From a virus, in IMG/VR virus record IMGVR_UViG_3300033148_003007, positions 1-27,431 of that record: 27,431 nt of DNA. One strand, given 5' to 3'. The translations under genes were made by a program, and so were the position numbers. Positions within the stretch are counted from its first letter, which is position 1, and the number at the start of each line of letters is the position of its first letter. Below the pieces are notes generated by a model. It was given only the letters and a program-made list of their open reading frames with translations. It did not search any database and was not told the origin of the DNA. Shown piece after piece: positions 3,666 to 26,873 of the stretch.

Positions 3666-3874
3666 TGGAATGGAATAAATTTGAATCTGAATTGAAAAAT
3701 AAACTTAAAGAAATTACAAAAAATGATTTAGATGAAGGTAGTTTACAATTTGAGAAAATAGTTGCCTCTGTTTTATTAGATTCGTTTATAAAAGAAGGAG
3801 TAATAAAAAGAAAAAAGATAACTGGTAATAAATTAAAGAAAATACAGGATAAGTATATATTAATAAGGGGATAA
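3665..3874 (+). CDS. Small lysine-rich protein of the tail operon
   Basis: A 69-residue, charged, mostly helical protein with no recognisable domain. The start overlaps the previous stop by one base and the next gene begins two bases after its stop, so it belongs to the tail transcript. The C-terminal half is strongly basic (KRKKITGNKLKKIQDKY). It could be a small assembly factor or chaperone, but nothing in the sequence decides this. Confidence 0.6.
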   Translation: MEWNKFESELKNKLKEITKNDLDEGSLQFEKIVASVLLDSFIKEGVIKRKKITGNKLKKIQDKYILIRG

Positions 3875-5360: not shown

Positions 5361-5460
5361 AAAAACAGTATGCCAAACCCCACTAAATTTCATATCTATA
5401 TATTCATCGTGACCCCTACCCTAAACGCTGACGATTGTGGTAAGAATGAGGTTTTAAAAT

Positions 5461-5798
5461 TTACTGCTATCGTTTTTAACCCCTTTTTCCAATTTCAATT
5501 TCGCTAACAGTAGAGGGTTAGATAAAAACACGATTAAATCGTTAATAATATTCTTTTCTTATTTTTATTTCTACTTAGGTTCACCCTTGTCCAAAAGTGG
5601 ACTAGGGTCTTTTTCTATTTTATTCATATCAGTAACAAGGTTTTACCTTACTTTTCAAAAATAATCGTTATCAGTAATATTTTTTTTACTTTTTTGTTAA
5701 TTCAGTTTTCAAAAACGGTATCAGTAATATTTTTTACAAAATCTATTTTGCTTAGTTTTACCTCTTTTTCTTCAATTTTACACGTTCTACTGTTAACG
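5461..5798. repeat. Cluster of 11-bp motif CGNTANCAGTA (region 1)
   Basis: Copies read from the sequence: reverse strand at 5462-5472 and 5788-5798; forward strand at 5502-5512, 5666-5676 and 5716-5726; and a weaker forward copy at about 5625-5634 lacking the leading CG. The copies at 5666 and 5716 sit in a longer direct repeat beginning TTTTCAAAAA and ending CAGTAATATTTTTT. The motif is not palindromic and the copies are not evenly spaced. They may be protein-binding iterons or operators. Confidence 0.6.
5583..5615 (+). terminator. Strong hairpin followed by CTTTTTC
   Basis: An 11-base stem pairs ACCCTTGTCCA (5583-5593) with TGGACTAGGGT (5598-5608), closed by an AAAG loop, with a single T-T mismatch in the middle. 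CTTTTTC follows directly. Shape and U-tract fit an intrinsic-type terminator for the upstream tail operon; archaeal termination usually needs only the U-tract, so the stem may have another role. Confidence 0.55.
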
Positions 5799-5832
5799 AA
5801 AAAAGGTGAAACGACAACAGCAACGTGCGGTA

Positions 5833-5843
5833 ACTATATAAAG
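5833..5843 (+). promoter_or_regulatory. Archaeal-type TATA box for the replication operon
   Basis: The sequence ACTATATAAAG matches an archaeal TATA element. A start of transcription about 25 bases downstream (near 5863) would leave a leader of about 30 bases carrying GAGGGATT before ATG 5895. One copy of the 11-bp motif (5788-5798) lies about 35 bases upstream, where a regulator could touch the promoter. Confidence 0.5.
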
Positions 5844-5894
5844 GAACGTAACATATATATATATTAGGAAGTAGAAAAATATAGAGGGATTGAA

Positions 5895-6053
5895 ATGCTA
5901 GTGAAAATTGTATATAAAGATGGTGAAGAAGTAAAAGTTAAAAAAGGGGAATTAATTAAAGAAGATGAGTTTACTATTAAAATTCAAACTTTAGTTAAAC
6001 CAATTACAATAGGTAAAATGAATTTAATTGAAATGTCTCAAATAGGTGAGTGA
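5895..6053 (+). CDS. Small protein, first gene of replication operon
   Basis: A 52-residue protein (MLVKIVYKDGEEVKVKKGEL at the start) not recognised. It has an N-terminal beta hairpin pattern and a hydrophobic, weakly charged C-terminus ending QIGE. GAGGGATT at 5884-5891 gives a good ribosome site. Its stop is directly followed by the next ATG (6054), whose ribosome site AGGTGAG lies inside this gene, so translation is coupled. As the first gene after the promoter it may be an early regulator, but no DNA-binding motif can be claimed. Confidence 0.55.
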   Translation: MLVKIVYKDGEEVKVKKGELIKEDEFTIKIQTLVKPITIGKMNLIEMSQIGE

Positions 6054-6275
6054 ATGAAAACTTATAATTTAGAATTAACAAAACCAGAATTAACACAGTT
6101 ATACCATCTGTTAATGGATGTAAAACCAAGAATACAAAGAAATATAGATAGAAGTTATTCTGGAAAAGACCCCATGTGGATAGCTAAAATTGTTAAAATT
6201 AATAGTATTTTAAATAAAGTAAATAAAGTTAAAGATTATAAATTACAAGATAAACTATATAAATGTTTATGTTAG
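6054..6275 (+). CDS. Small helical protein upstream of polymerase
   Basis: A 73-residue, lysine-rich and apparently all-helical protein that I do not recognise. Helices fit about residues 8-20 (PELTQLYHLLMDV) and 43-65 (WIAKIVKINSILNKVNKV). The start abuts the previous stop, with AGGTGAG as ribosome site. The gene ends CLC followed by TAG inside the AGGTGAG of the polymerase gene. Its position suggests an accessory factor for replication. Confidence 0.6.
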   Translation: MKTYNLELTKPELTQLYHLLMDVKPRIQRNIDRSYSGKDPMWIAKIVKINSILNKVNKVKDYKLQDKLYKCLC

Positions 6276-6283
6276 GTGAGTGT

Positions 6284-7618
6284 ATGAGTGAATGGTTTAA
6301 CCCAAGATTAACAACAGCAACAGAAGAAGTGAATAATTTAGTTAATGAAATTTATATTCAATTAGACGGATATAAAAAAGAACTAAAAAAAGAAGCGCTT
6401 ATTTCTATTATTTCAAATATAAGAATGTATAAAGACGTAAGAGTAACAAGAGATAAAAATGATTATACTAAATTCAAAAATGAAAATAACCCTTTTTATA
6501 CATATAAAATAATGGTTCAAATGTTTGATTTCTTAGAAGAAATTGGATTAATAGAACAATTCAGCCCCCCGATGCTTTGGAGTAGAATAAACGGAACTGA
6601 AATGTTTTATAATAAATTAGAGTTCTTTAAAAGAGAAAATATTTATAAAAAAGAACTTTATAATAAATTAATACTAAAACAAAACGATAATTATATTAGT
6701 TATAAAGAAACAAGAAAAACAATTGAAATGAAGAAAACACTTGAAGATTATAAATATATTAATAAATTCAAGGTTTCACTTAAAATTGAACCAAATGAAT
6801 TCAAAAAACTTTCTAATAAAGCAATTAATTGGATTATGTATAAATATAAAGGATTTATTATAACAGAATATGAAAGAGAATTAATAGATAATGACTTAGA
6901 AAGTAGTAAAGTAGAGAAATATAAGAAATTAAGAAAGAGAATGTTTACATATACCCATACCTTTTGCTCTTCAAACCTTCTACTACATCGGGTTTTCAAT
7001 GTAATCAATTCGGGTAAAATAGGTAGAAATCACACTTTTTATTACGGTGGAAGATTCTATGGTTCAGAGATTCAAAACATACCAAAAGAACTAAGAAAAT
7101 TCATTTTTATTGACGAAAAAGAAACGTGTGAACCAGATTTTTCAGCTTTACATCCAAGAATGTTATATCATTTAGAAGAAATTGATTTCAAAGATGACCC
7201 TTATAAAAGTAAATACAGGGATTTAATGAAACTAGTTGGAATGATTGTCATAAACGCATCTGATAAAAAGTCTTCTGTTTATGCAATTAGAAGTAAATTC
7301 AGAAAGGGCATTCGTAAAGGTGACTTAAAATACGAGTATAATATTCTAAAAGATAATTTCATTAAAAAACTAATGAAAGAATTTGAAGAAAACAACGAAC
7401 AAATCAAAAAATACTTTTATACTGGTAAAGGAATTGAACTACAGGCAATGGATTCTGATATAATAAACGAAGTATTGAATTATTTTATAGATAAGAATAT
7501 ATTAATAATACCAATACATGATTCTATTATAATACAAACTAAACATAGAGAAGAGTGTATTAAAGTAATGAACGAAAAATATAAAGAGAAAATCGGGTTT
7601 GAACCGATTATTAAATAA
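6284..7618 (+). CDS. TV-Pol-like polymerase (family A / T7 RNAP-related)
   Basis: A 444-residue protein starting at ATG 6284, chosen over the in-frame ATG at 6263 because AGGTGAG (6274-6280) precedes it. The C-terminal half carries polymerase-like motifs: YYGGRFYGSEIQNIP (253-267), then motif A with EPDFSALHPRMLYHL (Asp285), a possible motif B region with Lys and Arg around 325-345, and motif C IPIHDSIII (His412-Asp413). This arrangement resembles the TV-Pol family of transposon- and virus-associated polymerases related to family A DNA polymerases and T7-type RNA polymerases. The N-terminal 240 residues are helical and lysine-rich, without a recognisable exonuclease. It is likely the main virus replication enzyme; whether it makes DNA, primers or RNA cannot be told from sequence. 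Confidence 0.62.
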   Translation: MSEWFNPRLTTATEEVNNLVNEIYIQLDGYKKELKKEALISIISNIRMYKDVRVTRDKNDYTKFKNENNPFYTYKIMVQMFDFLEEIGLIEQFSPPMLWSRINGTEMFYNKLEFFKRENIYKKELYNKLILKQNDNYISYKETRKTIEMKKTLEDYKYINKFKVSLKIEPNEFKKLSNKAINWIMYKYKGFIITEYERELIDNDLESSKVEKYKKLRKRMFTYTHTFCSSNLLLHRVFNVINSGKIGRNHTFYYGGRFYGSEIQNIPKELRKFIFIDEKETCEPDFSALHPRMLYHLEEIDFKDDPYKSKYRDLMKLVGMIVINASDKKSSVYAIRSKFRKGIRKGDLKYEYNILKDNFIKKLMKEFEENNEQIKKYFYTGKGIELQAMDSDIINEVLNYFIDKNILIIPIHDSIIIQTKHREECIKVMNEKYKEKIGFEPIIK

Positions 7619-7624
7619 AGGTGA

Positions 7625-7813
7625 ATGAAAATGGGAGAAATTAAAGAGTTAGGATATAATGAAGCAGGTATGAAACAAGCGGGAAAAAGGTTGATAAAAT
7701 TCTTTTCAGTTATAGGTGTAATATTTGGAATATTATTGATGTTATTTGGGCTGACTATAACAGGATTAAGTATAAGCGCAGTATGTTCTTATATATTTAT
7801 AGCGTTAAAATAA
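7625..7813 (+). CDS. Small two-TM membrane protein
   Basis: A 62-residue protein. Residues 1-24 are polar and helical (KELGYNEAGMKQAGKRLIK), followed by two predicted membrane segments, about 26-43 (FFSVIGVIFGILLMLFGL) and 45-60. GGTGA lies just before ATG 7625; a second in-frame ATG at 7631 is also possible. The function is unknown. A small double-spanning protein in a virus could be a holin, but the position in the replication block does not particularly support it. Confidence 0.6.
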   Translation: MKMGEIKELGYNEAGMKQAGKRLIKFFSVIGVIFGILLMLFGLTITGLSISAVCSYIFIALK

Positions 7814-7828
7814 AATGAGAGTGATTGA

Positions 7829-8140
7829 ATGATAGTAAATGTAAAGTGTGATTATTGTGGAGAATATTTTCCAAGGCATGATTATGAGGTTGTAAGAACG
7901 AAAAACCATTTTTGTAAATTAGAACACGCATATGCTTTTAGAGTTGGTAAAAAAACACAACCATGTTCAGAAGAAACAAGAAAGAAAATAGGTAAAGGAA
8001 ACACAGGTAAAACAAAAACAGAAGAATGGAAACAAGAAAGAAGTGCAGCATATAGCGGAAAAGGAAATCCGTTTTATGGTTGTAAACATACAGATAAATC
8101 CAGAGAACAAATGAGTGTAAATAGTATGAGTACTAAATAA
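7829..8140 (+). CDS. Zinc-finger plus NUMOD3 DNA-binding protein
   Basis: A 103-residue protein. The N-terminus has a treble-clef-like zinc site: Cys7-x2-Cys10, then Cys29 and His33 in FCKLEHAYAF. Residues 47-95 contain NUMOD3-type motifs (SEETRKKIGKGNTG and NPFYGCKHTDKSREQMS), short DNA-binding segments known from homing endonucleases of the HNH and GIY-YIG groups. No nuclease domain is present, and the protein ends soon after the last motif. It may be a stand-alone DNA-binding protein or the remains of a homing endonuclease. GAGAGTGATT precedes the ATG. Confidence 0.6.
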   Translation: MIVNVKCDYCGEYFPRHDYEVVRTKNHFCKLEHAYAFRVGKKTQPCSEETRKKIGKGNTGKTKTEEWKQERSAAYSGKGNPFYGCKHTDKSREQMSVNSMSTK

Positions 8141-8190
8141 AATAATTAAATTTACTATAATTATAAAACAACGGGTGATATAATTGAAAA

Positions 8191-8679
8191 GTGAAAGTGA
8201 AAATGATAATAAAAATAAAAGAAGAAGAAATAAAACAAGCAAAGGAACAAATAAAAGAATTTGATAAAATCAAAATTTACAATAAATTCCCTTGTAAGAA
8301 TAATTATATAGGAATATTAGGAGAGATTGTATTCAATAGATATTTAAATGAAAGAAATATCGCACATAAATGGGTTAAATTCGTTAAAAAAGGATATAAC
8401 ACACCAGATTTTGTTATCAACGGAAAGACCTTTGATATAAAAACAACAAGGTCATCTGTAATGTGGTTTCAGAAACCTATTTACAATGTTTATATATATG
8501 CTTATATAAACGAAAATGATACAATTTTGAACATAAAAGGATGGACAACAAAGAAAATAATAGAAAAGTTAATTAACGAAAATAAAATAGAAATAATTAC
8601 AAGAAATATAAGAAAAGATTATATAATAAAACAAGAACAATTAAATAAAAATTGGTTAAATGTGGTAATGGGTGTTTAG
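8191..8679 (+). CDS. PD-(D/E)XK-fold nuclease-like protein
   Basis: A 162-residue protein. I chose GTG 8191, eleven bases after GGGTGAT (8173-8179); ATG 8203 would remove four residues. The PD-(D/E)XK core is readable: a helix ending GILGEIVFNRYL with Glu45, then TPDFVINGKTFDIKTT with Asp73 and D82-x-K84. A C-terminal part rich in Lys and Asn may bind DNA. Such folds are found in Holliday-junction resolvases, restriction enzymes and phage exonucleases, and I cannot say which. Next to a polymerase it probably works in replication, repair or attack on host DNA. Confidence 0.58.
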   Translation: MKVKMIIKIKEEEIKQAKEQIKEFDKIKIYNKFPCKNNYIGILGEIVFNRYLNERNIAHKWVKFVKKGYNTPDFVINGKTFDIKTTRSSVMWFQKPIYNVYIYAYINENDTILNIKGWTTKKIIEKLINENKIEIITRNIRKDYIIKQEQLNKNWLNVVMGV

Positions 8680-8793
8680 ATGAAATATATAACAAAAGAT
8701 ATGAAAATGAATAAAATAATGAAAACAATAAAAATGTATAAAATATATTTAGTAATAGTTACTATTGCGTTGATAATAGCAATTGTTATATAG
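8680..8793 (+). CDS. Small single-TM peptide
   Basis: A 37-residue peptide starting one base after the previous stop (TAGATG). The N-terminal half is basic (KMNKIMKTIKMYK) and the C-terminal half is one hydrophobic helix, IYLVIVTIALIIAIVI, which would sit in the membrane with the N-terminus in the cytoplasm. Its stop lies within the ribosome site of the next gene (TAGGTGATTAAATG). The function is unknown. Confidence 0.45.
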   Translation: MKYITKDMKMNKIMKTIKMYKIYLVIVTIALIIAIVI

Positions 8794-8801
8794 GTGATTA
8801 A

Positions 8802-8957
8802 ATGTTAAGAGAATTTGTAACAGAAAGTTTTATTGCATGTACAAGTGCAATAGTAGTATGTTGGATATTACCAGTAGAAGGTGTTTTAACCGGAGCAGCA
8901 GCAGGAGTATCTGGATACGTATTTCCAGAGATTTATAGAAAAATAAAAGGAGAGTGA
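8802..8957 (+). CDS. Small hydrophobic membrane protein
   Basis: A 51-residue protein preceded by AGGTGATTAA, an ideal ribosome site here. Residues 8-24 (ESFIACTSAIVVCWILP) and 27-43 (GVLTGAAAGVSGYVFPE) form two hydrophobic segments rich in small residues, followed by a basic tail YRKIKGE. The pattern of two short membrane helices and a charged C-terminus is seen in small holins, but the evidence is only topological. Confidence 0.5.
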   Translation: MLREFVTESFIACTSAIVVCWILPVEGVLTGAAAGVSGYVFPEIYRKIKGE

Positions 8958-8961
8958 AAAT

Positions 8962-10314
8962 ATGAAAAAAGTGTTAGTATTAATAATGGTTTTGTTAATT
9001 ATGATACCAAATGTTAATGCAGAGTGTGTAGATTATGAATTAGATATAGAAGGAGACTATCTGGTTTCAAATATAGTTTGGTATGTAGATAATTCCCATA
9101 CAGGATGGGGTTATACAGACGGATATTTAGTATATGATATAAATTACAGTTCTGGATTACAGGAAGTAAAAGTAAAATATTATGGTGGTGACGATAGTAA
9201 AACATGGGAAATAACAGAAGAAGGGATTTACCATGCTGCTATTTTTGTAATACCCGGAATAGAACATAGAGTAGAAATGTATTTAGAAGGTGAATTGGTT
9301 AATAGTGTGCCAATTCCACACCAATCTGTTAATTCATTAAATAAAGTCAGTATAGGTAATGCTGTTGATTCAACTTATTTAAATATACAAGTTTGTTCTG
9401 AGTTACCTGTTTATAATCAAACTGAAAAATGTATTCAGAATTGGAGTTGTACAAATTTTACAGAATGTACAAATGAAACACAAGAAAGGGTTTGTATAGA
9501 TTTAAACGAATGTAATAATAACACAGGAAAACCAAAAGAAATACAAAATTGTACTGTAGAAAATGAAACCGAAATATGTATTGTAAATTGGAATTGTTCA
9601 AACTGGACTGAATGTATAAATGAAACACAAACGAGAATATGTTCAGATTTAAATGAATGTAATAACGAAACATTGAAACCTTTTGAAATACAGAATTGTA
9701 CAAACGAAACAAATGAAATTATTAATAAAACTTGCATTATAAATTGGAGTTGTTCTAATTGGACTAACTGTATTAATTTAACACAAACAAGAATATGCGA
9801 AGATTTAAACAATTGTATCAACGAAACTGGAAAACCTATTGAATTTCAAAATTGTACAAATGAAACTATTAATGAAACCATACCCGAAATTTGCATATCT
9901 GATTGGAAATGTAATAATTGGGGTAGATGTATAAACAGAAAAAAAACAAGAGAATGTATAGATTTAAATTCTTGTGAAATTCAAACTAATATACCCAAAG
10001 TTTTAGAAAGTTGTGTTAGCAATTCAGGAGGTTCTGGTGGTTCTGGCGGAGGCGCTTATATACCCAAACCAATTATAAATAAAACTGAAAACATTACAGA
10101 AAAAATAATTGTAAACAATGTTATTAAAATAGAAGAACCAGAAAACGAAACCGAAATAATTTTGGAACAAAACGTAATTGAACCAGAAATAAAAGAACCT
10201 GAAACGATAAAACATGAAATAGTTAAACCAGAAATAAAAGAACCAGAAATAACTAAAACATGGTTAGACAAAATAAAAGAATTTTTAATTAAAATATGGA
10301 GATGGTTAATATAA
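8962..10314 (+). CDS. Secreted, sequon-dense Cys-rich repeat glycoprotein
   Basis: A 450-residue protein with a clear signal peptide (residues 1-20, ending NVNA before ECVDY). A beta-rich domain (21-150) is followed by four thrombospondin-type-1-like repeats (about 155-350), each with W-x-C-x-x-W/F-x-x-C, then Q/K-x-R-x-C, D-L-N-x-C and a final N-C or S-C. A Gly-Ser linker (GGSGGSGGG) leads to an acidic Glu-Pro-Lys-rich stalk and an amphipathic Trp-rich end (WLDKIKEFLIKIWRWLI). By my count 25 N-x-S/T sequons are present, most in the repeats. Similar Cys repeats occur in surface proteins of DPANN-type archaea. It is likely exported and heavily N-glycosylated. It could be a virion spike or a protein displayed on the infected cell. 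The downstream glycosyltransferase gene overlaps its end. Confidence 0.7.
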   Translation: MKKVLVLIMVLLIMIPNVNAECVDYELDIEGDYLVSNIVWYVDNSHTGWGYTDGYLVYDINYSSGLQEVKVKYYGGDDSKTWEITEEGIYHAAIFVIPGIEHRVEMYLEGELVNSVPIPHQSVNSLNKVSIGNAVDSTYLNIQVCSELPVYNQTEKCIQNWSCTNFTECTNETQERVCIDLNECNNNTGKPKEIQNCTVENETEICIVNWNCSNWTECINETQTRICSDLNECNNETLKPFEIQNCTNETNEIINKTCIINWSCSNWTNCINLTQTRICEDLNNCINETGKPIEFQNCTNETINETIPEICISDWKCNNWGRCINRKKTRECIDLNSCEIQTNIPKVLESCVSNSGGSGGSGGGAYIPKPIINKTENITEKIIVNNVIKIEEPENETEIILEQNVIEPEIKEPETIKHEIVKPEIKEPEITKTWLDKIKEFLIKIWRWLI

Positions 10315-11535: not shown

Positions 11536-11712
11536 ATGAAATGGAATTTACATGACAATGTACATATATCAGTTTGTGAATGTGGTGAACATCATTACCA
11601 TCTTTTAAAGATAGGCAATGCAGTCTATTTACAATGCGGTAAATGTTCTAAACTAACACCAATTATTTTAGATATGTACGAAAGAGAAAAATTAAAAGAG
11701 GGGAAAATATGA
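11536..11712 (+). CDS. Small zinc-ribbon protein
   Basis: A 58-residue protein with CECGEHH (14-20) and CGKCSK (34-39), a two-pair Cys zinc ribbon. The strand pattern between the pairs (HYHLLKIGNAVYLQ) is usual for this fold. The start lies four bases after the glycosyltransferase stop and its own stop overlaps the next start (ATGA). Zinc ribbons of this size bind nucleic acids or proteins. The specific role is unknown. Confidence 0.55.
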   Translation: MKWNLHDNVHISVCECGEHHYHLLKIGNAVYLQCGKCSKLTPIILDMYEREKLKEGKI

Positions 11713-11888
11713 TAATACGAAAAGTATGGCAAGCAAAAAGTAATGGAACAAAATATATTACAATCCCAAAGAATTGTAATATTAATGCTGGAGATTATGT
11801 AAAACTTATACGAATTATAGAACCAAATTGTGAATATGAAACTGAAACAATTGAATATGATAATTCAAAATTTGGTAATACAAATTAA
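11709..11888 (+). CDS. AbrB/SpoVT-like DNA-binding regulator
   Basis: A 59-residue protein. Residues 1-38 (RKVWQAKSNGTKYITIPKN, then INAGDYVKLIRI) match the swapped-hairpin AbrB/SpoVT/MazE fold: a first strand, the ITIPK turn and the GDYVKL strand. Proteins of this fold dimerise and bind DNA as transcription regulators or antitoxins. No toxin gene is beside it, so a regulator is more likely. It overlaps the zinc-ribbon gene by four bases. It is a candidate to bind the repeated motif in the non-coding regions, though nothing shows this directly. Confidence 0.65.
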   Translation: MIIRKVWQAKSNGTKYITIPKNCNINAGDYVKLIRIIEPNCEYETETIEYDNSKFGNTN

Positions 11889-18014: not shown

Positions 18015-19072
18015 AATTATTTATAGCTGGTCCAGTAAATACATCAGAAAGTTTAAAGAAAATAATTCCTTATAATGAAATGGGACATAGAGAACCAGAG
18101 TTTGAGAATTTGTATAAAGGAGTTAAAACCAAACTTTATAAAGTATTTAAAATAAATAAAAAAGAATTTGACTTTGCAATTATAGGCGGTTCTGGTACTT
18201 CTGCAATAGAAAGTATGATTTCATCTATAGTAAATAAGAAAATATTAGTCATTTCAAACGGTGCGTTTGGTGAAAGGGCTTATGAGATATGTAAAATATA
18301 CGGTTTGCAAAGAGTTTATTTACAATATTCATGGGGTGATTATCCAAATGAATTAGAAATAGAGAAGATTCTACAAAATGACCCGGAAATTGGTTTTGTT
18401 TATATGGTACACATGGAAACCAGCACAGGTATGTTGAACCCAATAAAAGAAGTAGGAAATTTGTGCAAGAAGTACAACAAGACATATCTTATTGATTCTG
18501 TCTGCGCTATAGGTTGCGAGAAATTAGATATGAACGAGTTTAATATAGATTTCTGCGCATTTAGTTCTAATAAAGGTATTGGTGGAGTTCCTGTAGTTGG
18601 AATGGTATGTTGTAGAAAAAATAAGTTAAATAACCAAAAAAGGAATATGTACTTAAATTTAAATTCTTATTTGGATTATAGTAAAAAGAATCAAACCCCA
18701 TTTACTCCTGCTATACCGATGTTTTATTTTTTAAATGAAGTTTTAGTTGATTTACTTAAAGAAGGTGTAAATAATAGATTGAAAAGGTATAAAAATAATT
18801 GTGATTTATTGAAAAAGGAATTAACTAAATTAGATTTGGAATTTTATTTGAAAGATTATATGGCTAATATAATGGTAAATGTAATTATACCAAATGGATT
18901 AACATTTAAATTAATCCATGATGAATTAAAAAAAAGGGGATTTATTATTTATAATGGTAAAGATGAATTGGAGGGTAAGATTATGCATATAGCAACTATG
19001 GGAGATTTAACTGAAAAAGATATAAAAGAATTTGTAAAGAATTTAAAAGAAATAATAACCATAGTCCATTAA
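18011..19072 (+). CDS. Class V aminotransferase, 2-aminoethylphosphonate transaminase-like
   Basis: A 353-residue PLP enzyme. FIAGPVNTSESLK (4-16) and GHREPEF (25-31) are typical of the PhnW/alanine-glyoxylate aminotransferase group. GGSGTSAIES (59-68) binds the cofactor phosphate, IDSVCAIG holds Asp162, and SSNKGIGGVP (185-194) carries the PLP lysine, Lys188. Within class V, the GHREPEF start and the SSNKG-x-x-G-V-P site most resemble 2-aminoethylphosphonate:pyruvate transaminase, but serine- or alanine-glyoxylate enzymes are close relatives. No PEP mutase or phosphonopyruvate decarboxylase is in the window, so phosphonate chemistry would need them elsewhere. It overlaps the HAD gene by four bases. 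Confidence 0.75.
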   Translation: MKLFIAGPVNTSESLKKIIPYNEMGHREPEFENLYKGVKTKLYKVFKINKKEFDFAIIGGSGTSAIESMISSIVNKKILVISNGAFGERAYEICKIYGLQRVYLQYSWGDYPNELEIEKILQNDPEIGFVYMVHMETSTGMLNPIKEVGNLCKKYNKTYLIDSVCAIGCEKLDMNEFNIDFCAFSSNKGIGGVPVVGMVCCRKNKLNNQKRNMYLNLNSYLDYSKKNQTPFTPAIPMFYFLNEVLVDLLKEGVNNRLKRYKNNCDLLKKELTKLDLEFYLKDYMANIMVNVIIPNGLTFKLIHDELKKRGFIIYNGKDELEGKIMHIATMGDLTEKDIKEFVKNLKEIITIVH

Positions 19073-21337: not shown

Positions 21338-21496
21338 ATGGGACGAAAGCAGATAACAACTAAAGAAAGAATTATGAACAGGAGTATTGGATTCCACATT
21401 AGACAAATTGAATTTTTCAATAAATACCCAGAATTCAAGCCCGATAAATTTTGTAGAATGGCAATAGATGAACAGATAAAATTAATAGGTGGTTAG
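21338..21496 (+). CDS. Possible ribbon-helix-helix regulator
   Basis: A 52-residue basic protein preceded by AGAGGTAATAAA. A short strand-like segment (IGFHIRQIEFF) is followed by FKPDKFCRMAIDEQIK, which resembles the second helix of ribbon-helix-helix proteins. The motif is not clear enough to be certain. Its leader is the same twelve bases as before the terminase gene (23452-23463), which makes it a useful ATG reference for that gene's ATT start. The next ATG abuts its stop. Confidence 0.5.
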   Translation: MGRKQITTKERIMNRSIGFHIRQIEFFNKYPEFKPDKFCRMAIDEQIKLIGG

Positions 21497-22704: not shown

Positions 22705-23118
22705 ATGAAGTCAAGTAATTCAGATAACCCCCACCGTTTTGATAATATGTCAAAAACGGAAGCGGATAATCTAAGAGCAAAGGCAAAGTCTGTTCATAAG
22801 ACTGAAGCATTTAGTAAAAAAATGAAAGAAGTTGCTAATAAAAGATATTTCAGGGAGAAGAACCCTGATATATCTGCGCTAATGGAACTCTATAACAGTG
22901 GTGACGAAAAGGAAGTAATGAATAAATACGTTACAGATGTTGAAGTGTTTAAAGAGTTATTTGAAAACGCTGATACTGTAGAAAGCAGACGAAGAATTTG
23001 GAGTGACTATATGTCTTTTAACTTAAAGATATTTGAATTAATGTTCGGTACTAAGAGTAAAATAGACCAGAAAGTACAGTCAGTTAATTATAACGTAGTC
23101 ATACATGAACCAAAGTAA
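22705..23118 (+). CDS. Candidate small terminase subunit
   Basis: A 137-residue, mostly helical protein directly upstream of the large terminase gene. The basic N-terminal half (RFDNMSKTEADNLRAKAK to VANKRYFREK) could bind DNA; the middle (NPDISALMELYNSGDEKEV) and C-terminal helices could oligomerise, ending in a strand VNYNVVIHEPK. The call rests mainly on gene order and size, since small terminases are very divergent. AAGTGATTAG precedes the ATG. A 345-base non-coding region separates it from the large subunit, which is unusual for a terminase pair. Confidence 0.42.
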   Translation: MKSSNSDNPHRFDNMSKTEADNLRAKAKSVHKTEAFSKKMKEVANKRYFREKNPDISALMELYNSGDEKEVMNKYVTDVEVFKELFENADTVESRRRIWSDYMSFNLKIFELMFGTKSKIDQKVQSVNYNVVIHEPK

Positions 23119-23150
23119 CTGAGAGAAAGTAAGAGGGATGGATAGGTAGT

Positions 23151-23163
23151 AGTATATAATATG
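23151..23163 (+). promoter_or_regulatory. TATA-like element of region 2
   Basis: AGTATATAATATG resembles an archaeal TATA box. Transcription about 25 bases downstream (near 23182) would begin inside the shared 19-bp element, so a protein bound there could block it. The leader to the terminase would be long, about 280 bases, so a second promoter nearer the gene (for example GGTTTTAAAAT at 23360-23370) is also possible. Confidence 0.35.
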
Positions 23164-23175
23164 TAATACCATTTG

Positions 23176-23406
23176 AGGTAAAACCCTTTTACTGTTGTTC
23201 TTTAATTTCTCAAAAAAACTGCCTAAAAAGTACCAGAAACGCACTTTTTCAATTACCCAAAAACGGTAACAGTAAAAAATAAGTTCAATACTTAGCAACA
23301 TTGAGGGCGTTTACCCTACCCTCCAGAGATAACATTCATTTCACCCCTTTACTGGTAACGGTTTTAAAATAGTGTGAAAACAAAGAAAGTTGTGTTACTG
23401 ATGCCG
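23176..23406. repeat. Cluster of 11-bp motif CGNTANCAGTA (region 2)
   Basis: Forward copy at 23264-23274; reverse copies at 23350-23360 and, with one mismatch, 23396-23406; a degenerate reverse copy at 23190-23200. The copy at 23264 lies in CAAAAACGGTAACAGTAA (23258-23275), which matches 5710-5727 at 17 of 18 positions. AGGTAAAACC at 23176 plus the adjoining TTACTG matches the reverse complement of 5630-5648 at 17 of 19. Confidence 0.6.
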
Positions 23407-23463
23407 AAAAGCAACGAAACCAAAGAAATTAATCTTGTCAGTGTCTAAAAAAGAGGTAATAAA

Positions 23464-24816
23464 ATTAGAGAAGTAAATATAAATTGGATTCCAACCAAGA
23501 AACAAATGGAAGCATTTAAAATACTGAAAGATAAAAAGACGAATGAACTTCTATTTGGCGGTGGTGCAGGCGGGGCTAAATCTCATCTTGGTTGTGCATG
23601 GTTGATTTTGAACTGTTTAGAGTATCAGGGGTCTAGATGGTTAATGGGTAGAGCAGTGCTTAAGTCGCTTAAAGAATCAACTTTATTAACCTTTTTTGAT
23701 ATTTGTAAATCATGGGGCTTAATTAAAGGTGAAGATTATACTTATAACCAAATAGAAGGTATAATCAATTTTACTAAAACTAATTCAACTATTTATCTAA
23801 AAGATTTATTTGCTTATCCAAGCGACCCCGAATTTGACTCTCTTGGTTCTACTGAATTCACTGGAGTATTTATAGACGAAGGCGCACAGATTACTCTTAA
23901 AGCTTTTAATATATGTAAGTCAAGAATTAGGTACAAGTTAGATGAATTCGGGATTATACCTAAAATATTAATTTGCTCTAACCCATGTAAGAACTTTCTT
24001 TATTCAGATTTCTATAAACCTTGGAAGTCTGGAGAGTTATTAACTTATAGAAAGTTCTTACCTGCATTGGCAAAAGACAATCCATTTGTTTCAAAGTTCT
24101 ATATAGAAAACTTAAAGAAATTAGATATAATAAGTAAGGAAAGACTACTTTACGGTAACTGGGAGTACGATGACGACCCAAATAGATTATTTGAATACGA
24201 TAAAATAGTGGATATGTTTACTAACAACGTTAAAAGAGGAACTAAATATTGTATAGTAGACCAATCAGGTAGAGGAAGAGATAAAGCTGTTATAACTCTT
24301 TGGGACGGACTTTTTGTTTATAAAATATATATTTACTCAGTTGGAATAAGCAGTATGGATTTAGATAAAATACTTCAGACTGAGGGGATAAATAGAAGTA
24401 ATTGTTTAGCAGATGAAGATGGTGTAGGTTTTGGACTTGTTAAAGACCTACCGGGAATAAAAGGATTCGTTAACAATGCAACTGCTATTAAAGGATTAAA
24501 AAAAGCGTTGGACCAGACCAGAGTAGACATAAATTACGCTAATTTAAAAGCGCAGTGTTGGGACACGTTAGCAAATTACGTTAACGTTGGACAAATTGGC
24601 GTCTATAGAGATATTAAAATAGAACAGAAAAAATTAATTATAGAAGACTTAGAACACATAAAACAAACTAACGTAGGTAAAGACCAACCGTTTAGAGTAA
24701 GTACAAAAGAAAACTTAAAAGAAGAAATGGGTAGGTCAACAGATATAGGAGACACTTTTATGATGAGAATGTTCTTTGAGCTTAAACCCAGTTATGTACC
24801 GTATATTTCTATATAG
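23464..24816 (+). CDS. terL: Terminase large subunit (TerL), probable ATT start
   Basis: About 450 residues. The first in-frame ATG (23506) would cut off NINWIPTKKQ, the typical terminase N-terminus. The only start that fits AAGAGGTAAT is ATT 23464; the same twelve-base leader AGAGGTAATAAA precedes an ATG at 21338. In ATT numbering: Walker A GGGAGGAKS (32-40), Walker B VFIDE (135-139), an ATPase coupling motif near ILICSNP (about 169-175), and an RNase H-like nuclease with Asp266 (IVDQSGRGRDK), Asp317/Asp319 (ADEDG) and a late GDTFM. The enzyme packages DNA into the head through the portal and cuts the concatemer. All catalytic parts are present. Confidence 0.9.
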   Translation: MREVNINWIPTKKQMEAFKILKDKKTNELLFGGGAGGAKSHLGCAWLILNCLEYQGSRWLMGRAVLKSLKESTLLTFFDICKSWGLIKGEDYTYNQIEGIINFTKTNSTIYLKDLFAYPSDPEFDSLGSTEFTGVFIDEGAQITLKAFNICKSRIRYKLDEFGIIPKILICSNPCKNFLYSDFYKPWKSGELLTYRKFLPALAKDNPFVSKFYIENLKKLDIISKERLLYGNWEYDDDPNRLFEYDKIVDMFTNNVKRGTKYCIVDQSGRGRDKAVITLWDGLFVYKIYIYSVGISSMDLDKILQTEGINRSNCLADEDGVGFGLVKDLPGIKGFVNNATAIKGLKKALDQTRVDINYANLKAQCWDTLANYVNVGQIGVYRDIKIEQKKLIIEDLEHIKQTNVGKDQPFRVSTKENLKEEMGRSTDIGDTFMMRMFFELKPSYVPYISI

Positions 24817-26664: not shown

Positions 26665-26873
26665 TGGCACAATTATGTGGTTCTGGTACTGGAAACGGAA
26701 TTAATTATGCAATGGTAGATAGTTCAATTGGAACTAATCAGGGCAGGTTATTAACCGTATCAGATGTAAAGGTAGAAGAGATTGGTTCACCTTGTTTCAA
26801 ACAAGCAACTATGGCTGCTTCAGTATTAATATTTCAAGCAGACGTATTAAATTATGTGGTGCAACCAATATGA
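26664..26873 (+). CDS. Small protein downstream of portal
   Basis: A 69-residue protein that I do not recognise, with GAGAGATT as ribosome site and a one-base overlap with the portal stop. It is Gly/Ser-rich at the start (CGSGTGNGINYAMVDSS) and hydrophobic at the end (ASVLIFQADVLNYVVQPI). It could be a small head protein. The next gene overlaps it by four bases. Confidence 0.5.
   Translation: MAQLCGSGTGNGINYAMVDSSIGTNQGRLLTVSDVKVEEIGSPCFKQATMAASVLIFQADVLNYVVQPI

Follow-up and report, generated by a model that had tools for sequence, protein, structure and literature searches.

The short repeats found at positions 5461-5798 of this viral DNA raise the question of what recognizes them and why they recur 17 kb away in a second non-coding region. 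The window, meaning here the whole stretch of DNA that was analysed, is a 27,431-base tailed-virus record with both ends open. All of its main genes are carried on the plus strand, in the order tail genes (to 5360), early block (from 5895), sugar-modifying genes, and terminase and portal genes. Two non-coding regions, gap 1 and gap 2, separate parts of this series (Table 1), and a preliminary description of the sequence had named them as its only long gene-free stretches; they are the longest, and one shorter gap of about 127 bp exists besides (26665-26791). Relatives of the terminase were numerous in IMG/VR and were also present in genomes of Nanoarchaeota, Patescibacteria, and Bacteroidota. 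A nanoarchaeal host appears likely from these sequence matches, because the closest genome match to the window terminase was a Nanoarchaeota assembly (65%) and relatives of the portal and glycosyltransferase proteins were both present in another Nanoarchaeota genome. Little is known of gene control in tailed viruses of DPANN-type archaea.

The 11-bp word CGNTANCAGTA matched the window exactly seven times, against 0.11 expected (100 dinucleotide shuffles: mean 0.11, largest 1), and all seven matches lie within the two gaps, five in gap 1 (spanning 5462-5798) and two in gap 2. Allowing up to one mismatch gave 13 matches against 3.0 expected, and 3,000 letter-permuted patterns of the same word never gave more than three matches in the window (mean 0.106). 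A chance origin of the repeats was ruled out by these shuffle and permutation controls. The five to six copies described earlier for gap 1 stand, with five of them exact, while the "at least three" of gap 2 resolve into two exact copies and a third, at 23396, with one mismatch. Two longer matches between the gaps, 17 of 18 bases (5710-5727 and 23258-23275) and 17 of 19 bases (5630-5648 reversed and 23176-23194), were exactly as claimed. Orientation of the exact copies is mixed (four plus, three minus) relative to the plus-strand genes. Two further words are also overrepresented: AGGTAAAAC with four copies against 0.46 expected, three of them within gaps (5640 and 5755, minus; 23176, plus) and one coding (8005, plus), and CCCTACCCT with two copies against 0.12 expected, one per gap (5414 and 23314).

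Table 1 Positions of the gaps, repeated elements, and candidate binder in the window.
Feature	Position	Strand	Remark
Gap 1	5361-5894		Non-coding, tail genes to early genes; no conserved ORF
CCCTACCCT	5414-5422	+	Adjoins CGTTT (minus, from 5428)
Motif copy CGATAGCAGTA	5462-5472	-	Exact match
Motif copy CGCTAACAGTA	5502-5512	+	Exact match
Second word AGGTAAAAC, paired with TTACTG	5640-5648	-	Word scan
Motif copy CGTTATCAGTA, then ATATTTTTTTT	5666-5676	+	Exact match
Motif copy CGGTATCAGTA, then ATATTTTTT	5716-5726	+	Exact match
Second word AGGTAAAAC	5755-5763	-	Word scan
Motif copy CGTTAACAGTA	5788-5798	-	Exact match; runs on as GAACG
Degenerate copy CGACAACAGCA	5812-5822	+	Same degenerate form in G022 gap
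AbrB-like protein, 59 aa, candidate binder	11709-11888	+	Relative in G001
Gap 2	23119-23475		Non-coding, small to large terminase gene
Composite AGGTAAAACC...TTACTG	23176-23194	+	Matches reversed 5630-5648 at 17/19 bases
Composite element: motif, CGTTTACCCTACCCTCCA, inverted motif	23258-23370		Homologous to G022 tail gap
Motif copy CGGTAACAGTA	23264-23274	+	Exact match
Core CGTTTACCCTACCCTCCA	23308-23325	+	First 17 bases in only two IMG/VR contigs
Motif copy CGTTACCAGTA	23350-23360	-	Exact match
Motif copy CGGCATCAGTA	23396-23406	-	One mismatch

Neither coding sequence nor a known RNA element appears to account for the main copies. Mechanical ORFs of 45-73 aa overlap both gaps. Relatives were searched for the plus-strand pair in gap 1, and none were found in related viruses; all gap-overlapping ORFs, including minus-strand 23080-23301, were treated as spurious. 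Coding of tail or other proteins by the main motif copies was ruled out on the grounds that the gap 1 ORFs are not conserved. A known RNA element was likewise rejected: Rfam gave no match in the window, neither gap sequence was more stably folded than its shuffles (z -1.0 and -0.2), and the presence of sites in both orientations also argues against an RNA element. No named element containing CGNTANCAGTA was found by literature search in a relevant context, in agreement with the preliminary description. A bacterial-type scan showed no excess, and the TATA-like tracts near them, for example 5833-5843, are uninformative given the AT-rich sequence.

About 35 related viral records were compared with the window. 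Strict clustered copies in gene-free gaps were present in two of them, G001 (33.3 kb, terminase 67%) and G022 (34.5 kb, portal 72%), in the form AAMCGNTANCAGTAR. This form is also the consensus over 13 aligned sites, in which the motif bases are fixed and the surroundings diverge. All four strict copies in G001, CGNTANCAGT at 3850, 17852, 18858, and 18893, are in gaps, and the G001 equivalent of gap 2 separates the terminase genes, as in the window; the GAACG continuation of the copy at 5788-5798 is also seen in G001 as CAGTAGAACG. In G022 a pair at 106 and 142, with degenerate copies alongside, occupies the gap at the end of the tail genes, one more match (15364) is within a gene, and there is no gap before TerL. 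Absence from the same gaps of related genomes had been named in the preliminary description as a refutation; the motif is instead present in the equivalent gaps of G001 and G022, and it is missing in more distant relatives. The other related records, including G021, G407, G408, G409, and G026, had no motif clusters, their scattered single matches were about as frequent as those of the reversed-pattern control, and in most relatives no gap separates the terminase genes.

Searches were extended to possible host genomes and to other viruses. The motif was not enriched relative to the reversed pattern in 371 Nanoarchaeota genomes, and no comparable arrays were seen there, which rules out a host-genome motif. 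Among the matches listed from a scan of IMG/VR for direct pairs, most were coding repeats or unrelated repeats, plus G022, and a scan for inverted pairs gave 28 contigs, nearly all coding. Repeats of similar letters but a different unit, CGTTANCAGTACCGT-type, form two non-coding clusters in an unrelated virus contig (L188 2540-2850), and palindromic CGTTATCAGTACGTACTGATAACG repeats occur in viral contigs of about 50% GC (L306 2687-2766, L314 46-125). The cis-element itself is new, well supported, and of a known kind.

Several of the sites are embedded in longer conserved or duplicated elements. The composite in gap 2 is 65% identical to the G022 tail gap over 106 bp (E 7e-7), with nearly equal spacing: a motif, CGTTTACCCTACCCTCCA 44 bp on, and an inverted motif that is exact in the window and degenerate in G022. 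This similarity persists with the motifs masked (0/1,000 shuffles), and among 2.9 million IMG/VR contigs only two contained CGTTTACCCTACCCTCC: G022, and another in which a chance match falls in GC-rich coding DNA. Since G022 lacks a TerL gap and has the composite in its tail gap, this type of composite is not tied to the TerL promoter. A possible counterpart is seen in the left part of gap 1, which also has CCCTACCCT: CGTTT(A), on the minus strand from 5428, and the motif that starts at 5472 are 44 bp apart, the same distance as in gap 2. Similarity between this part of gap 1 and gap 2 was not significant once motifs were masked (247/1,000 shuffles), so an inverted core in gap 1 is suggestive only.

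The G001 sites are in or beside diverged non-coding duplicates of two families, of 103 bp (82%) and 142 bp (72%). Copies of the 103-bp repeat, whose AT-rich, TATA-like centre is flanked by an ACGAWAGTTCC inverted repeat, are directly upstream of two operons, one before TerL and one before early plus-strand genes. Each copy of the 142-bp repeat (8880-9021 and 18781-18922) has two sites 35 bp apart; the second copy lies between convergent gene ends, and the first is next to an HNH endonuclease gene and to an aminotransferase gene that is truncated. That aminotransferase gene is intact in the window and reduced in G001 to a 3' remnant (L148 8074-9150) beside the HNH/NUMOD3 endonuclease gene. Two G001 elements folded better than shuffles (z -2.7 and -4.2). 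In the second, this is explained by an imperfect dyad at each site, to which the site itself belongs.

An asymmetric word is thus kept amid diverging surroundings in the gaps of three viruses, and the simplest reading is a protein-binding site. The repeats are very probably an array of binding sites for a single putative protein, and the earlier proposal that one protein acts at both gaps holds as the best explanation of the shared conserved site; the alternatives it had left open, joint control of early and late operons or replication, are weighed below. One sequence-specific DNA-binding protein would recognize the full form AAMCGNTANCAGTAR, and the gaps would be control regions, with several sites in both orientations plus the accessory words AGGTAAAAC, CGTTTACCCTACCCTCC, and, in G001, the ACGAWAGTTCC inverted repeat. 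The gap 1 array would control the early block and the gap 2 array the TerL-led late block. We give an even chance to the proposal that the array serves transcription control of the flanking blocks. It is the first choice because two G001 elements precede operons and because regulators of archaeal viruses use repeated promoter sites. F55 of SSV1 binds tandem repeats in several promoters, and SvtR of SIRV1 binds far upstream of TATA (PMC5569661). As in those systems, a short site is repeated in more than one non-coding control region per genome, in G001 and G022 as well as in the window, and the proposed arrangement of a small viral protein with several promoter regions, some sites being well upstream of TATA, is a feature of F55 and SvtR. 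The sequences themselves differ, the F55 consensus being ATAGATAGAGT and the SvtR site an inverted repeat, whereas the window sites are asymmetric, occur in both orientations, and are embedded in elements of 100-140 bp. Against transcription control, no promoter is expected at the G001 copy between convergent gene ends, the gap-2-type composite of G022 is in the tail gap and away from TerL, and the spacing from motif to TATA-like sequence is not constant.

The stoperators of mycobacteriophage L5 offer another comparison, with an asymmetric 13 bp site that recurs in gene-free spots, at more than 20 places in the genome, and whose orientation follows the direction of transcription (PMC9283540). 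The window site is also asymmetric, of similar length (11 bp), and in gene-free spots. Its strict copies are of mixed orientation and limited to two gaps, unlike those of L5, and stoperators of this type are a poor fit because copy orientation does not follow plus-strand transcription.

The protein that would bind the sites is probably encoded by the virus. Among the three window proteins put forward in the preliminary description, the small AbrB-like protein may be the best candidate binder, weakly supported at most. A relative of it occurs in G001 (41% over 41 aa, E 4e-7), and it is thus common to two viruses, the window and G001, whose early genes are not shared. No relatives were present in 28 of the 30 related records searched, and none was found in G022, a contig that stops short of the early genes. 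Against this candidate, a weaker relative occurs in G006, where motif clusters are missing, and the structure model is of low confidence (four strands, pLDDT 64, no significant fold match). The protein had no Pfam or NCBIfam match, and its label reflects a resemblance in sequence that profiles and structure did not confirm. The ribbon-helix-helix-like protein (21338-21496) is conserved in many motif-free relatives, and the NUMOD3 protein (7829) had no relative in G001 or G022 (tblastn, 1e-3). The small terminase subunit was not supported as the binder: among motif-bearing viruses this subunit comes in two types (23-25% identical), and motif-free G407 has the window type.

The main rival to transcription control, ranked second to it, is a pair of replication origins like those of SPP1, in which the repeats would be iteron-like initiator sites with an early origin in gap 1 and a second in the late gap 2. 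This is possible, if distinctly less probable. In SPP1, the direct repeats recognized by gp38 are found at oriL and at oriR, origins about 12-13 kb apart, one of them in a late region, with similar repeats and AT-rich parts (PMC6316719, PMC3485210). The window resembles this in that the same repeats occur in two regions far apart, one next to replication-type genes and one late, and the block that follows gap 1 includes a polymerase-like gene (6263-7618). Gap 1 also contains a 250-bp tract between sites (5540-5790; 49% T, 9% G) that might serve as an unwinding element; the AT content of gap 2 is not especially high. The G001 site in a convergent gap suits replication better than transcription. 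Opposing this reading, the repeats differ in sequence from those of SPP1, there is no GC skew turn at either gap, and motif-bearing elements occupy four to five places in G001, many for origins and more than the two regions of SPP1. No initiator gene common to the window and G001 was found, and the window early-block genes (5895-8957) had no relative in G001 or G022 (tblastn, 1e-3). The polymerase-like protein belongs to phrog_4756, of unknown function; no relatives were found in IMG/VR, and its structure model (pLDDT 34) was useless. The relatives that it has among phages come from large Aeromonas and Vibrio phages and are hypothetical proteins. Should the sites prove to be origins, they would provide a handle on replication start in viruses with otherwise unrelated early genes.

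Dispersed centromeres are known in phages and are the comparison for a role in partition or genome organization, with the repeats as centromere-like sites for plasmid or provirus maintenance. The dispersal of the clusters over non-coding spots, one of them a convergent gap, would suit such a role, which is nevertheless unlikely, as no ParA or ParB was detected among selected proteins of the window and G001 with Pfam and PHROGs. Also improbable is a mobile or recombinational nature of the long repeats, as non-autonomous insertions or as boundary sequences aiding viruses in the exchange of gene blocks. The elements do lie at block boundaries, one G001 copy (8880-9021) beside the truncated aminotransferase and HNH endonuclease genes, and the early block between motif-bearing gaps has been replaced wholesale between the window and G001. 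Yet the short motif is kept in copies that are 65-82% identical, which indicates selection on the motif, some motif copies are outside the long repeats, and no terminal repeats with target duplications were identified. A packaging signal for the small terminase subunit is highly unlikely, for although gap 2 is between the two terminase genes in both the window and G001, the main cluster, that of gap 1, is 17 kb off, G022 has no gap at the terminase, and the small subunits are of the two types described above.

Returning to the binding-site array, the 110-bp composite, an inverted motif pair around its core, might be a module in which a symmetric nucleoprotein site encloses a polar core and the core sets a direction, such as that of replication or of a change from circular to concatemer replication, in a virus group that probably infects Nanoarchaeota. 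We consider this decidedly unlikely. It would draw on the orientation of CCCTACCCT, which keeps to the plus strand in gap 1 and gap 2 alike although the flanking half-element is inverted in gap 1; in G022 its orientation relative to the tail genes is unchanged, and the core is asymmetric and C-rich. The conserved site array, together with the short list of candidate binders, provides a target for binding tests and a marker for this virus group.

Two minor observations concern individual genes. In the window (23449-23508), the reading frame of the terminase is already open at 23449, and the conserved residues NINWIPTKKQ lie ahead of its first ATG at 23506. No ATG, GTG, or TTG is in frame upstream of that ATG, so translation may begin at a rare codon (ATT or ATA) after GAGGT. 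A predicted tRNA-Pro (TGG) gene is present in both G001 (L148 13182-13254) and G021 (L174 5558-5631).
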